Shown piece by piece: positions 43,930-50,645 of a DNA stretch of 64,000 bases. How positions within the stretch are numbered: position 1 is the first letter of the stretch; every line of letters starts with the position of its first letter. The stretch is from Ignavibacteria bacterium (GTDB lineage: Bacteria > Bacteroidota > Ignavibacteria > Kapaibacteriales > UBA961): the NCBI GenBank assembly GCA_016873735.1, contig VGWD01000001.1:1-64000 (forward strand). The letters are read 5' to 3'. Made by a program: the position numbers and the translations under genes. Under the pieces are notes generated by a model. The model searched no databases. It was given only the letters and a program-made list of their open reading frames with translations, and was not told the DNA's origin.

Positions 43930-45885
43930 ATGGATATTTCCGTCATCATCGTGAATTACAATGTCAAGGACTTCCTTGTGCAATGCCTGAACTCATTGCA
44001 GATTGCCCTTGAAGGAATTGATGCGGAGATCATTATCATCGACAATGATTCTGAAGATGGATCACAAGAATATATACCCAGAAAATTTCCTGATCTTCGC
44101 TATCATTGGCTGGATCGAAATATAGGTTTTGGTACGGCAAACAATATTGGGATACAAGAAGCAAAGGGTAGATATGTGCTCTTATTGAATCCTGATACAA
44201 TAATCGAAAAGGGCACAATTCGCAGCATGATTGCATTCATGGATCGAGAACCAAATTGCGGTATCGCCGGATGCAGAGTACTCAATGCAGATGGAACATT
44301 TCAACTCGCTTGCCGAAGAGGCCTGCCCACACCTTGGGCTTCCTTTTGCAAGTTATTCGGATTACAGGCCTTATTCCCTTCTTCCCCTCTGTTTGCTCGC
44401 TATAATATGACCTACAAAAGCGAGCTTGAAACCTATGATGTCGATGCATTGATTGGAGCTTTCATGTTTTGCAGAAAGGAAGCCTTGAATCAAGCATCGG
44501 GTTTCGACACCGATTTCTTCATGTATGGAGAAGATGTCGATCTATGCCACAGAGTGCAAAAGAATGGTTGGACAATCCGATATTTCCATGAGCCAACAAT
44601 CATTCATTTCAAGGGCGAGAGTTCAAGAAGAAGCTCATTGAATGAAATCAGCGTGTTTTATGATGCAATGGAAATATTTGCTCGAAAACATTTTGGTCAT
44701 TCCACATTGTTCTTGTTTATCCTTCGCATAGGCATCAAACTACGATCAATGTATGCGATGATCGAAGAACATATTTGGGATGTCTTGTTCATGCTTTTGG
44801 ACGCGATTTCAATTGTTTCGGCCTTAATGCTTGCAACAACAGTCAGATTCGGAGCGCCATTTGCATTCCCGGATTATGCTTATCCCACCGTATTCATTGC
44901 GATGATTTTCATCACATTGATTTCACTCTTGATTTCCGGCGGATACTTTGAACATACTGGACGCATCAGACCGGTTATAACGGGTTATTTTGCTGCATTC
45001 TTTGTCCTTTCTTCCTTAACATATTTCTTCAAAGATTTTGCTTTCAGCAGAGGCGTCCTGCTGATGAGTATGGCTTTTGCACTTGGATGTTCAATCATTG
45101 CCAGGACGTTGTGGCATGCTTATCATACGATAAAAGGAAAAAAAGCTGATAGAAGAGTATTGATCATTGGGAAAAATGAACATGAAACAGAAATTCTCAA
45201 TGCATTGCAAACAGCAGATAAACATAATGCCATCATCATCGGAAGAGTAAAAACGCATTTAGATGATACTCAACATGTGCATTTGCCAATTCTCGGAGAA
45301 CTCTCAGAATTGGAAACAATCGTATTACATCATGACATCGATGAAATCCTCATCATTGACAATTCCATTGATGCCATGCACATGCTTGGATTGTCGATGG
45401 CTTTGCAACAGCATAAAGTACGCATCCATGCTGTGAGTGAATATGATGATGTGATTGTATCCCATATAGCACAGGAAATCTCCGGTATTTCACCCGATAT
45501 ACCGAAGGTGAATTTGAGAATATTCCGCCATCGCTTGATAAAGCGTTGCGGTGACCTTGCTTTAGCCCTTTTCTTTTTGAGTCTTGGCCTCCCACTCGTA
45601 TTTTTGTTATCCGATCATCCGATATCTTTCATCAAAACAATGATCGATGTCTTGATCGGCCGCATGAGCATCGTTGGTGTGTATACAAATGACACATTAT
45701 TTCCGGATGCACTTCCCGGAATGACCGGTCTTGCGCATATTGGTAATGCAACCATGATGTCTCCTTCGGTGATTCATGATCTGGACGCTCACTATATTCG
45801 TTATCACACTCCCGGGCTGGACCTGGAAATACTCTTGAAACACTTTGTAAGGAATGGTTTACGTGGCTTCAAACTTCGTTCTTGA
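43930..45885 (+). CDS. GT2 glycosyltransferase fused to a degenerate polyprenyl sugar-phosphotransferase
   Basis: Residues 1-260 form a rhamnosyltransferase-like GT2 domain ([30 protein letters not shown] at 85-90, GEDVDLCHR at 200-208). Four to five membrane spans follow (about 283-395), then a nucleotide-binding-like CoA_binding_3 domain ([16 protein letters not shown], about 408-510). The last 115 residues align with polyprenyl glycosylphosphotransferases ([18 protein letters not shown] at 538, GRMSIVG at 577, [10 protein letters not shown] at 596), but the middle that should hold the KFRSM and DELPQ catalytic motifs is missing. The transferase half is probably inactive or has a new role. 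accA overlaps its end. Confidence 0.85.
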
Positions 45886-46819
45886 ATTCGAAAAACCAAT
45901 AGTAGAACTTGAGCAAAAAGTAACTGAAATGCGAAGTCTTCCGAATGCATCGGAAATTGAATCGCAAATCAATGAACTCGAAAACAGCATTGAAGAATTG
46001 CGTTCGAATATTTATGCGCATCTCACTCGATGGCAACGAGTACAAATTGCACGTCACCCTGATAGACCCTATTCTCTTGATTATGCAGATTTCACATTCA
46101 CGGATTTTGTTGAATTGCATGGCGATCGGGGTTTCAGGGATGATCCGGCAATCATAGGTGGTTTGGCTAAGCTTGATGGTCAGCCCGTGATGCTCATTGG
46201 GCATCAAAAAGGGCGAGACACTAAATCAAATCTGTACCGAAATTTCGGCATGCCAAATCCAGAAGGGTATAGAAAAGCGAAACGATTGATGCTCTTGGCG
46301 GAAAAGTTTCAGGTGCCCGTCATTTGTTTGCTCGATACACCGGGTGCATATCCGGGCATCGAGGCAGAAGAACGCGGACAAGCTCAAGCAATTGCTGATA
46401 ATCTCCTTGCAATGTCTGGCCTAAGTACACCCATCATCATTTGCATCATCGGCGAGGGTGCTTCCGGTGGCGCTTTAGGCATTGGCATCGGAGACAGAAT
46501 ACTCATGCTTGAAAATGCATGGTATTCGGTGATTGCTCCGGAATCTTGTTCGAGTATTTTATGGAGAAGTTGGGACTTCAAAGAACAAGCGGCTGAGGCA
46601 TTGAAATTGACAGCTCCAGATCTTCAGCAATTTGGCATCATCGATCGCATAGTTCCTGAACCTGTGGGTGGCGCACACAGAGCTCCAATTGACATGTTTG
46701 AATCATTGAAGATCATACTAAGCGAAGAATTGCATACACTCAAACAAAAAGACCTAACGACATTGATCAGCGAGCGACGCGATAAATTTGCCCAAATGGG
46801 CGTTTGGACGGAGTCTTGA
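45854..46819 (+). CDS. accA: acetyl-CoA carboxylase carboxyltransferase alpha subunit
   Basis: AccA with AccD transfers the carboxyl group from biotin to acetyl-CoA, giving malonyl-CoA for fatty acids. The 321-residue protein has the family motifs [70 protein letters not shown] and [12 protein letters not shown]. The start overlaps the GT fusion gene by 32 bases; GTG at 45863, with AAGGA nine bases before it, is an alternative. It is sandwiched between two glycosyltransferases, with no accD or accBC nearby. Confidence 0.95.
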
Positions 46820-46824
46820 ACATA

Positions 46825-48006
46825 GTGAGTAAATCAACAATAGTATATGTCGTCAATGCAAAGGTGCCGGAAGAAGTAAGAGCAGAAAAAATATGTGCAT
46901 CTTTGGTACAACATGGTCATAATGTGATCATCGCTTGCAAATGGTCAGGGGAAACAGAAATCAGAGAAAAGCATGATGGATACACAATCATTCGCATAGG
47001 CAAGGGTAAAGGGATTTTTGCAACATGCTTTCCGGGCAATCCTTTTTGGCAGGCAGCAATTTCATCCATCATCCAAGAATTCAATCCGAACTTGATCATC
47101 TGTAGAGAGATGATCCCAATGCAATCTTGCGTCAAAGCCACAAGAAAAACCATTCCGATCATACTTGACATGGCAGAACATTATCCGGCCGCAATGAGAG
47201 AATGGAAGAAATATCGGATGAATCCGATTTCTCGTTTGGCCGTTCATCACCTCTATATCCCGGACTTCATTGAGAAGCATGCGGTTCAACACGCTGATGC
47301 CATCATCACTGTTTGCAAAGAACAAAATGAACGACTCAATGCTGAATATGATATTGGGAACAATGCAATGTTCATTGCTCACAATACTCCTGATGAGTGT
47401 AGTATCAATGGCATTCGCAAAGGATCTTCGCTGCCGCCAATCGTTTTCGGACATCATGGTTATTTTACACTGGAACGAAACTTGGAAATGCTTGTGAAAG
47501 GATTCGCCATAGCAGCACAAAGGCATCCGAATATCAAACTTCTTCTTGCAGGTTCAGGCGAAACATTCAATGATGTATATGCCATTGCCTCTTCACTCCC
47601 CTGCTCAGATCAGATTGAATTCACAGGATCCTACACATCACATGATTTGGCTGATTTGTATGGTAGAACTGATATTGGCATTCTGCCTTATGCCGAGCAA
47701 CAATTCCGTCAATACACCTTACCAAATAAAGCATTTGATTATATGGCCAGTGGCATACCGATCATAAGTTCAGGTTTAAGACCGATGAGACGATTATTGG
47801 ATGAAACCCAAGCAGGCATATATGGTTCCTGCGAAACACCCGAGAACATCGCTGCGCTTATCGACATCATGATGCGTTCAGATATCCCTTCAATGGCCGA
47901 AAACGGCATAGAATCTTTCAAGAAAACATATAATTGGGGGCACGATTTCAAACAAATTCTGGCTTCAATTGATTTTACCCTATCACATAGTCGAAAAAAC
48001 CTTTGA
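46825..48006 (+). CDS. family 4 glycosyltransferase
   Basis: The 393-residue GT-B protein has a donor-side LLLAGSGETFNDV, YGRTDIGILPYAEQQF and YTLPNKAFDYMASGIPIISSG, typical of GT4 retaining transferases. The acceptor-side domain has the usual VRAEKICASLVQHGHNVI. No ATG starts the frame; GTG at 46825 is chosen, and TTG at 46816 would overlap the accA stop. It is likely part of a surface polysaccharide or glycoprotein pathway with the neighbouring transferases. Confidence 0.85.
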   Translation: MSKSTIVYVVNAKVPEEVRAEKICASLVQHGHNVIIACKWSGETEIREKHDGYTIIRIGKGKGIFATCFPGNPFWQAAISSIIQEFNPNLIICREMIPMQSCVKATRKTIPIILDMAEHYPAAMREWKKYRMNPISRLAVHHLYIPDFIEKHAVQHADAIITVCKEQNERLNAEYDIGNNAMFIAHNTPDECSINGIRKGSSLPPIVFGHHGYFTLERNLEMLVKGFAIAAQRHPNIKLLLAGSGETFNDVYAIASSLPCSDQIEFTGSYTSHDLADLYGRTDIGILPYAEQQFRQYTLPNKAFDYMASGIPIISSGLRPMRRLLDETQAGIYGSCETPENIAALIDIMMRSDIPSMAENGIESFKKTYNWGHDFKQILASIDFTLSHSRKNL

Positions 48007-48030
48007 TTTTCATTGTTTTTTGTAGATTTG
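48002..48030 (+). promoter_or_regulatory. complete Bacteroidota-type promoter
   Basis: TTTG (48002-48005) and TAGATTTG (48023-48030) are separated by 17 bases and lie just before the ATG at 48041. This is the best two-box match in the window to the TTTG/TAnnTTTG consensus and supports the phylum-level placement. The leader would be only a few bases for the first ATG, so the second ATG (48056) may be used. Confidence 0.55.
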
Positions 48031-48040
48031 TATCGATTTT

Positions 48041-48841
48041 ATGAAAGTGCATTACATGAAACACCCCGATGAGCCCGGAAATTGTGCCTTACTCATCGTA
48101 TCATGTGACAAATACAAGGATTTGTGGGGACCTTGCATAACTTTGTTAAGAAGATTTTGGACGAACTGCCCGTATCCCGTTTATTTACTATCGAATACTG
48201 AAGCAGCTGATTTCCCCAATGTCTCTTCGATAATGACCGGATCAGACATATCTTGGTCGCATAATCTTCGTATTGCTCTCGAACACATTCGCGAACCCTA
48301 TGTATTGCTTTATGTAGAGGACTTGTTTTTGACAAAAGAGGTACAATCCTCAGCTGCTGAATCTCTCATAGAACGCTGCGTTTCCGAACATTGGAACTAT
48401 GTACGATTGAATCCAACACCAAAGGGTGATATTCGAATAGACAATGCTGTATCAAGAATTTCACCCGGCGCAGTATATAGATCTTCCGTTGTGTTTTCGG
48501 TTTGGAATAAAGATGTGTTGAATAGTCTCCTTCTGGATGGAGAATCCGCATGGGATTTTGAAGAAATCGGTTCGAAAAGAACAGATAAACTCGATGGTTT
48601 CTATGCTTCAAATCATACATTGATTCATGCAAGCAATACCGTGATAAAAGGGGTTTGGGAAGTGGAAGCCCTTAATATCGTGAGGAAGCTCGGAATTGAG
48701 CCGGACATACATTCCAGAAGAGTGATGACAAACAAAGAATATGCTCTGTGGAAACTGAAACAGTTGCGCTCTTTGTTGTTCCATTTATTGCCACATGGAA
48801 CAAAGCGAAAGGTAAAAGGATTCTTTCGTCAAAAAAAATAA
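48041..48841 (+). CDS. unnamed glycosyltransferase-like protein
   Basis: This 266-residue protein contains LLIVSCDKYKDLWGPCITLL at the start in a GT-A style, a DLF region (LLYVEDLFLTKEV) in the place of a metal-binding motif, NYVRLNPTPKGD, YRSSVVFSVWNKDVL, SAWDFEEIGSKR and VIKGVW. I recognise the arrangement from hypothetical proteins encoded in polysaccharide clusters but know no tested function. It has no signal or membrane spans, and a basic C-terminus (FRQKK). A second ATG five codons on is equally likely as start. Confidence 0.6.
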   Translation: MKVHYMKHPDEPGNCALLIVSCDKYKDLWGPCITLLRRFWTNCPYPVYLLSNTEAADFPNVSSIMTGSDISWSHNLRIALEHIREPYVLLYVEDLFLTKEVQSSAAESLIERCVSEHWNYVRLNPTPKGDIRIDNAVSRISPGAVYRSSVVFSVWNKDVLNSLLLDGESAWDFEEIGSKRTDKLDGFYASNHTLIHASNTVIKGVWEVEALNIVRKLGIEPDIHSRRVMTNKEYALWKLKQLRSLLFHLLPHGTKRKVKGFFRQKK

Positions 48842-49004: not shown

Positions 49005-50645
49005 ATGAGTTATCCAACACCAGATTCGGATGATCGTTCTTTTAATGATAATTCCGAATCACAACAGCCAATGTATTCCTATGATGGTAGTCATAAATCC
49101 GTGAATGAAGACTCTCAGGAATTTGGTAATCAGGATAGAGAGCGCAAGCCAAGAACATTTCGTTCTCCCGAAAGAAGCACAGATGATGAAAGGCCATCCG
49201 GTGATTTTGGTAGAGGACAGAGCCAGTATGGTTCAAGACCCGACTATCAAGATCGCGGTGATTATCGTAGTCCTTCTTATGGTGACAATCGCTATGAAAG
49301 ACGCGATCAGCAACAGAGACCCTACAGGTCACAAGACAATTATCGTCAAAGCAATTATGGCTCTGACAGGCCAAATCGCGATTATCAAAACAGATATAGT
49401 CGAGGCTCGGAAGGTGGTTCCGGTGGTTATCGCCAAGATTATAGACCACGCAGAGAATATGGTGATCGCCCACAATATGGACGCCAAGGCGGATATGAAT
49501 CACGTGGCAATTTTGACAATCGCGGTAGTGGTGGCGGTTATGACAATCGCCGCTCATATGATCAGCGTTCTGATTATAGACCACGTCGTGAATATGGAGA
49601 TCGCCCACAATATGGTCGCCAAGGTGGTGGTGGCTATGACAATTATGAACGTAGACCGCGCCAGTTCGATGATCGAGGTGGCTATGGCGAACAAAGAACA
49701 ATGCGCCCGCGGAATTTCGGGGATAATCGCTATCAACAAGATTATCGCGGTGGCGGTGGTGGTGGCGACTATTATCGTAATCCCATGAATCGTCCAATCA
49801 CATTGGTCAAAGCAATTTCAAAATGTGATTATGGTTCACCACGCATTTGCCTTAGAGCCATTCGCGAAGGTTTGGTTTCTGTCAATGGAGAAATCGTCAC
49901 AAATCCCAATGCACGTGTTCGCATAAACAGGGATATGTTCGAGGTCAATGGCATTCCGGTAAATCAGAATCTTGATAAGATGTATATAGCCGTGCATAAA
50001 GGAAGGCATTTCTCAGGATCAAATGAAATGTCCGTCCCCTCCATTTATCGATTGATGAAAAATAAATTCGGATGGTTTGCACCTTTGGGTTGTTTGGAAA
50101 TTGCTTCAAGCGGCATGATTATTTACACGAATGATATAAGCTGCAAACGCTCTTATGGAGCTGAACTGCAACATATCGCTAAAACTTATAGGGTAAAAGT
50201 ACATAGACCATTGCAGTCAATTGAAGAAGTTGAACGCATCTTAGATTTTGTTCGCACCCAAACAGAAGAACATGTCACTGTAGAACTCGAAAAAGTAAAT
50301 ACTCGCAATTGTTGGCTGAGATTTGATGTTCGTACTTCAACACCGACTGACATTCGCACTGCATTGAAAGAATATGGTTTGGAAACTTTGGCTTTTGAAA
50401 GAACAGCCATTGGTCATTTGACTGTTAAGAATTTCCATCCCGGTTCATGGAGACGCTTGGATGATCGTGAAATCGGCAAATTGCTCAAATCAGCAGAAGA
50501 ACCGATTGAACCATATATCGTTCCAGATGATTATAAAGTAGTCCCTCCTGGCAGTCCAATCAACAAAGATGATCAGCCAAACAAGAAGGCTTGGCGTGCA
50601 CTATATAAAGAGTGGCAAAAGGATATAGCTGAAAATTTGGATTGA
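49005..50645 (+). CDS. RGG-rich RluB/RsuA-family protein lacking catalytic motifs
   Basis: Residues 1-260 are a low-complexity tail of Arg, Gly, Tyr, Asp and Asn with RGG, GGGG and YGDRPQYGR runs, typical of RNA-binding disordered regions; a 19-residue unit is repeated at 145-163 and 190-208. An S4 RNA-binding domain follows (about 263-320, KAISKCDYGSPRICLRAIREG). The rest aligns with RsuA/RluB pseudouridine synthases, but the catalytic motif GRLD is GCLE at 362-365 (Asp replaced by Glu, Arg by Cys), and the EGRNREVRR-like motif is TSTPTDIRTAL. It keeps TND and YRVKV. I infer an RNA-binding, probably non-catalytic homolog. A terminator follows its stop. Confidence 0.82.
   Translation: MSYPTPDSDDRSFNDNSESQQPMYSYDGSHKSVNEDSQEFGNQDRERKPRTFRSPERSTDDERPSGDFGRGQSQYGSRPDYQDRGDYRSPSYGDNRYERRDQQQRPYRSQDNYRQSNYGSDRPNRDYQNRYSRGSEGGSGGYRQDYRPRREYGDRPQYGRQGGYESRGNFDNRGSGGGYDNRRSYDQRSDYRPRREYGDRPQYGRQGGGGYDNYERRPRQFDDRGGYGEQRTMRPRNFGDNRYQQDYRGGGGGGDYYRNPMNRPITLVKAISKCDYGSPRICLRAIREGLVSVNGEIVTNPNARVRINRDMFEVNGIPVNQNLDKMYIAVHKGRHFSGSNEMSVPSIYRLMKNKFGWFAPLGCLEIASSGMIIYTNDISCKRSYGAELQHIAKTYRVKVHRPLQSIEEVERILDFVRTQTEEHVTVELEKVNTRNCWLRFDVRTSTPTDIRTALKEYGLETLAFERTAIGHLTVKNFHPGSWRRLDDREIGKLLKSAEEPIEPYIVPDDYKVVPPGSPINKDDQPNKKAWRALYKEWQKDIAENLD
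49437..49628 (+). repeat. duplicated 57-base unit in the RGG tail
   Basis: The units at 49437-49493 and 49572-49628 encode the same 19 residues (DYRPRREYGDRPQYGRQGG) with only synonymous differences. Silent divergence with an unchanged product suggests an older duplication kept by selection on the protein rather than a recent slip. Confidence 0.8.

Follow-up and report, generated by a model that had tools for sequence, protein, structure and literature searches.

An ancient RsuA/RluB-type branch with altered active sites in Kapaibacteria: candidate non-catalytic RNA-binding factors with Arg-rich N-terminal regions

The window (the whole stretch of DNA that was analysed, 64,000 nucleotides) encodes a 546-aa protein of the RsuA/RluB family in which most of the active site has been replaced, and its relatives in Kapaibacteria, which are little-studied bacteria, form one branch. 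Catalysis has very probably been lost in this branch, and sequence comparison supports the retention of an RNA-binding fold. Our best explanation, which we consider reasonably probable, is an ancient RsuA/RluB pseudoenzyme branch whose members probably serve subunit assembly by binding rRNA without catalysis. Homology annotation would easily give the gene the label ‘pseudouridine synthase’, but the active site does not support this label. The ORF was confirmed as real, and the gene is laid out as follows.

49005..50645, + strand: whole gene, 546 aa, predicted RsuA/RluB-family pseudoenzyme with an apparently disordered N-terminal region (ORF, homology, orthologues)
49005..49784, + strand: N-terminal low-complexity region, residues 1-260, defined by composition, with two copies of DYRPRREYGDRPQYGRQGG
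49785..49964, + strand: S4-type RNA-binding domain, with the Pfam match at residues 279-308 and approximate outer limits
50088..50099, + strand: motif II, GCLE (residues 362-365) replacing GRLD, with Arg108 changed to Cys363 (base-flipping) and Asp110 to Glu365 (catalytic)
50187..50189, + strand: Tyr395, the equivalent of RluB Tyr140 and the sole core active-site residue retained
50334..50384, + strand: motif III region TSTPTDIRTALKEYGLE (residues 444-460), with Thr at the equivalents of Arg192 and Arg194, and including the family-invariant Lys455 and Glu460

Homology across the S4 and synthase region of the window protein is firm and, as judged from alignments and profiles, not in doubt. The RsuA/RluB-like core comprises residues 261-500 and shows the arrangement of the RsuA/RluB/RluE/RluF homology family, namely an S4 domain followed by a PseudoU_synth_2 fold, alignable over the full length. 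The S4 domain, which the first-pass annotation had described as kept, indeed scores above the Pfam gathering cut-off (24.2 vs 22.8 bits). PseudoU_synth_2 stays under its cut-off in the window protein (17.7 vs 26.8 bits) and is matched (E <= 0.01) in 21 of 23 relatives. The NCBIfam model TIGR00093 gives the window core 43.4 bits, below the curated cut-off of 109.3, and matches all 30 members of alignment A1 at E <= 0.01; the window protein also lies far below the NCBIfam RsuA cut-off (41-43 vs 275 bits). The window core matches RsuA (1ksk) directly with an E-value of 7e-9, while a profile of 30 relatives finds RsuA (1KSK; E 3.5e-27), RluB (9cl9; E 3.5e-19) and also 3DH3. An hhalign comparison of the family with an alignment of 34 canonical-type proteins yielded a probability of 100 (E 2.7e-54). 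An AlphaFold2 model derived from seven close sequences had a pLDDT of 44, which is too poor to interpret the pocket.

The roles of the active-site residues are taken from the work on RluB (PMC3919597), and positions are given in E. coli RluB numbering. Mutation of the Asp abolishes the activity of TruA, TruB, RluA, and RsuA, and the RluB variant R108A retains 0.6% activity (PMC3919597). In the window protein, motif II (GRLD, containing the catalytic Asp and the base-flipping Arg) reads GCLE, and this stretch aligns with the GRLD of RsuA (1ksk), a second RsuA entry (1vio), RluF (3dh3), and the canonical paralogues, exactly as the first-pass annotation had placed it. The downstream EGRNREVRR-like motif was likewise correctly reported as lost: motif III (EGxNRxVRR, including Arg194) is replaced by RTSTPTDIRTALK, with the window protein reading STPTDIRT. 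The Arg108, Asp110, Arg192, and Arg194 positions thus hold Cys363, Glu365, Thr, and Thr, the Arg17 position in the S4 domain is Pro, and Tyr140 is retained as Tyr395. Since four of the five active-site positions (Asp110, Arg108, Tyr140, Arg194, and Arg17) are altered, the earlier wording of a ‘broken active site’ understates the loss. Arg17, Arg192, and Arg194 contact RNA, and because they are lost the protein may bind another RNA target than RluB does. The same active-site state is seen in all seven genomes of the genus that were searched, one of them with Gly instead of Glu, and the altered site is, from these sequences, not a matter of chance.

Across the whole branch, 52 members were compared with 37 other RsuA-family proteins from the same order and class. 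The latter have R108 in 37/37, D110 in 36/37, Y140 in 37/37, and R194 in 34/37 cases. Among the 52 members, the Asp110 position is occupied by T (14), E (10), D (6), L (5), P (4), G (3), S (3), A (2), R (2), N (2), or V (1), and the Arg108 position by R (22), C (15), P (7), V (4), or others (4). Every member of families f1 and f7 has Cys in place of the base-flipping Arg, and Glu at the Asp110 position occurs in f1g1, f1g2, and f7. Tyr140 is kept in 43/52 members; of the eight f2 members, seven lack it. The equivalent of Arg194 is still Arg in four members and lost in the other 48. Arg108 and Asp110 are found together in two members only (G122 and the split copy of G036), for which residual activity is therefore possible; none of the four members with Arg194 has this pair, so the three residues are combined in 0/52 members. 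By parsimony, loss of the full catalytic set is a single change on the tree, and the Asp state requires three changes in all, with the motif columns left in the tree.

Other positions are held. K398, K455, E460, R466, G480, and W482 (window numbering) are invariant in 52/52 members, the motif I Lys (K332) is conserved in 51/52, and the K455 position is usually Glu in other RsuA-family proteins. A conserved Asp elsewhere in the active site was looked for, and no newly conserved one was found among the 52 orthologues. The matched core of the family members contains no internal stops, and dN/dS of the core, calculated by NG86 for pairs with estimable dS, several of them near saturation, is about 0.03-0.12 across pairs and about 0.03-0.08 within the window's genus; by this measure the core is under purifying selection. 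A catalytic pocket that drifts while other residues are held presents the pattern of a change of function. The pseudoenzyme reading, which had been proposed for the window protein, is thus supported by the catalytic drift in 52 orthologues, the fixation of other residues, and the purifying selection on the core.

The survey covered 61 related genomes and then 123 genomes of the order (Kapaibacteria). The branch is carried by 52 of the 123 genomes, with 51 members scoring 203-377 bits against the family profile and one copy split over two contigs (G036); other RsuA-type proteins in the order reach 187 bits or less. Genus mates of the window species include Candidatus Kapaibacterium sp., Ignavibacteria bacterium UBA961, and Chlorobiota bacterium OPB56. 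The branch was not found in the remaining 71 of the 123 genomes, which belong to family f3 (54), genus g5 of family f2 (11), and six others, among them G064 with its truncated copy; ribosome assembly as such therefore does not depend on it. Set against canonical and outgroup proteins, the family is recovered as one clade (support 100/99), and it stays one clade when the most distant group is omitted. Its branches mostly track the genus and family groupings, the pattern that vertical inheritance would produce. It occurs in most families of the order and in one further family of the class (f13), whose placement with the family involves long branches and rests equally on accA synteny and the tree. 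The f13 proteins (L118-L121) read GRLT, have no motif III, contain Arg-rich regions, and are encoded directly after accA, a position suggesting that the branch probably predates the order. In L118-L121 the Arg-rich region precedes the core, and L118 and L119 have about 300 further residues after it. Outside the class, no members were found at E 1e-42 or better among 395 genomes of the phylum, a threshold that more divergent ones could escape. The first-pass annotation had made the case for a new family depend on conservation across related genomes, and this is what we found: one branch, at one genomic site in most loci, in most families of the order and one more. No RsuA-type pseudoenzyme family was found among the matched Pfam/NCBIfam models or in the open-licence literature searched, nor did we find this branch described there.

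The earlier suggestion was to look for an intact RluB alongside the pseudoenzyme. The window genome also encodes an RluB-like, an RluF-like, and an RluE-like protein (L004, L005, and L006, respectively), all with GRLD, and the motifs of the first two are intact. Family f2 contains a series from full length to loss, with a very divergent gene in G060, a truncated one in G064, and none in genus g5 and G023. The very divergent G064 copy (genus g14; L175:1650-2243) lies directly after accA and has no disordered head, Tyr strand, or motif III region. A 126-aa ORF after accA in G023 was considered as a gene remnant and rejected, since tblastn shows no relation. In genus g9 of f6 (L154, L157, L158, L159, and L162), the ordinary RluB-type copy is also changing, with GRLE in G018, G040, and G050 and GRLD still in G027 and G034; motif III of the G018 copy reads CGRDRLLHRAF. 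Judging from the motifs, a synthase active site seems to be disappearing here for a second time, independently.

In most loci with enough flanking sequence, accA is located shortly upstream of the pseudoenzyme gene and is itself preceded by the gene of a 650-aa sugar-transferase-like protein. The counterparts in the window are given below.

43930..45885, + strand: putative glycosyltransferase/sugar-transferase-like protein of 651 aa, upstream of accA (conserved gene order; function by sequence appearance)
45854..46819, + strand: accA, which serves as the family's conserved landmark on the upstream side, with two genes intervening in the window's genus

The gap to accA measures 20-60 bases in several f2, f7, and f1 genomes, 0.5-0.8 kb in f5, f6, and f9, and 2 kb (two genes) in the window's genus. 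The intervening stretch of the window (46804-48841) contains a glycosyltransferase-like gene and a gene for a 266-aa protein, and genus g4 has both of them as well. Genus g5 shows the same neighbours downstream of accA, with the pseudoenzyme gene cleanly missing from that site. A functional operon with accA was rejected, because genomes that lack the gene still have these neighbours. Given that the glycosyltransferase and further neighbours are equally conserved without it, the accA linkage looks like general gene-order conservation. No Rfam RNA elements were found in the window.

The 260-residue Arg/Gly/Tyr-rich region announced by the first-pass annotation is present, but it is N-terminal (residues 1-260) and not a tail. 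Its composition is 18% R, 15% G, 11% Y, and 12% D, with about 5% hydrophobic residues. Residues 1-262 contain 47 R, 2 K, 31 D, 13 E, 30 Y, and 39 G, resulting in a net charge of about +5, and include only two RGG triplets, whereas an RGG box has clustered RGG/RG and a high positive charge. The region is therefore better described as a near-neutral Arg/Tyr/Asp/Gly polyampholyte, and the terms ‘RGG tail’ and ‘strong RNA binding’ were dropped for the window species on account of this charge and triplet count. Weak multivalent Arg/Tyr contacts are what may fairly be inferred for the window protein. An Arg-rich, hydrophobic-poor N-terminal region of about 80-430 aa (some lengths being shortened by contig ends) was found in 51/51 members with a readable N-terminal side, with a mean of 16% R (minimum 10%) and 3% K. 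The RGG count is zero in many orthologues, yet all are Arg-rich, and the region is apparently disordered in the members. No other matches to it were found in the window genome. Two canonical RluB-type copies of family f8 (L073 and L074, in G020 and G028) have N-terminal repeats of 220-330 aa as well. These are Lys-rich or Ser/Lys/Arg-rich and thus of another type than the pseudoenzyme's Arg/Tyr/Gly head. As some canonical RluB copies also have such long regions, disordered heads appear to be a habit of the lineage.

Three other explanations have to be weighed. Pseudouridylation might still be catalysed with Glu365, or another residue, replacing the Asp. Glu is a conservative change that recurs in more than one group, and both Tyr140 and the motif I Lys are widely kept. 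However, L012 of the same genus has Gly at this position (GCMG), and T, L, P, S, A, R, N, and V are found there across the family. The Cys replacing the base-flipping Arg throughout f1 and f7 affects the position at which R108A nearly abolishes RluB activity, motif III Arg194 is mostly gone, and no other Asp has become conserved, all of which makes retained catalysis very unlikely. The drift of the active site, together with the divergent, headless, or missing f2 genes, would also be expected of a decaying paralogue that is nearing loss and has no present function. This we regard as improbable in view of the low dN/dS within several lineages, the non-catalytic residues that are invariant in the 52 members, the matched core of the family members, which is free of internal stops, and the presence of the gene in two distant families of the class.

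The main rival to a role in rRNA assembly is a protein that binds and regulates mRNA (e.g., that of the adjacent accA operon) or scaffolds condensates, instead of a ribosome factor. In its favour, the gene has a conserved place downstream of accA in most families, and an Arg/Tyr/Gly/Gln/Asn-rich region suits weak multivalent contacts. Regulation of accA nevertheless fits poorly with the two genes in between in the window's genus, the wider spacing in f5, f6, and f9, and an upstream glycosyltransferase and other neighbours that are just as conserved without the pseudoenzyme gene. Nor does the window contain an Rfam RNA element. We consider this rival unlikely, although less so than the two above.

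The preferred explanation remains an rRNA-binding factor. In this scenario, a paralogue of an RsuA-family synthase, mostly inherited vertically, would have retained the S4 and synthase fold together with other residues that form a conserved set, and would have lost the catalytic machinery: nearly every member lacks the motif III Arg, and most lack the Asp, the base-flipping Arg, or both. The S4/synthase body would dock on an rRNA stem-loop of the RsuA-family type during subunit assembly, with the disordered head contributing weak multivalent contacts. That selection has kept a dead enzyme across many genera suggests that its task is binding and not chemistry, and the rRNA-assembly role is based on the homology to rRNA stem-loop binders and on precedents of synthases acting without chemistry. 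We give a non-catalytic rRNA-binding factor in subunit assembly, the most likely role by this analogy, about an even chance. A more specific proposal is put forward tentatively: Kapaibacteria, and one or more other families of the class, would have a dedicated rRNA-binding assembly or chaperone factor with an Arg-rich disordered head that might form condensates. The sequence, the residue losses, orthology, synteny, selection, and the N-terminal composition are what the data show; loss of activity, RNA binding, the rRNA target, and the assembly or chaperone role are what we infer. RNA-modifying enzymes are increasingly thought to be important as RNA chaperones apart from their chemistry. If the explanation is true, a natural clade with lost catalytic residues and a fold still under selection would offer a direct test of this idea. 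The comparison is also a clean one: the protein is encoded in 52 genomes, is missing from the corresponding site in close relatives, and has intact paralogues beside it within one cell.

The window protein resembles RsuA (16S rRNA pseudouridine-516 synthase; 1KSK) in the order of the S4 and synthase domains, the near full-length alignment, and the kept Tyr, and differs from it in having GCLE instead of GRLD, a lost motif III, and a 260-aa low-complexity N-terminal region. RluB and RluF (23S rRNA U2605 and U2604 synthases; 4LAB and 3DH3) share its fold, domain order, and end-to-end core alignment, but the equivalents of their Arg108, Asp110, Arg194, and Arg17 are all replaced. Pseudouridine synthases with a catalysis-independent role are known in TruB, a tRNA chaperone whose inactive form rescues fitness (PMC11301382), and in PUS1, which acts as an assembly factor of the mitoribosome and whose pocket points away from the rRNA (PMC13294482). 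These two are intact enzymes with an extra role, whereas the branch described here is of the RsuA type with an S4 domain and its catalytic residues are gone clade-wide.
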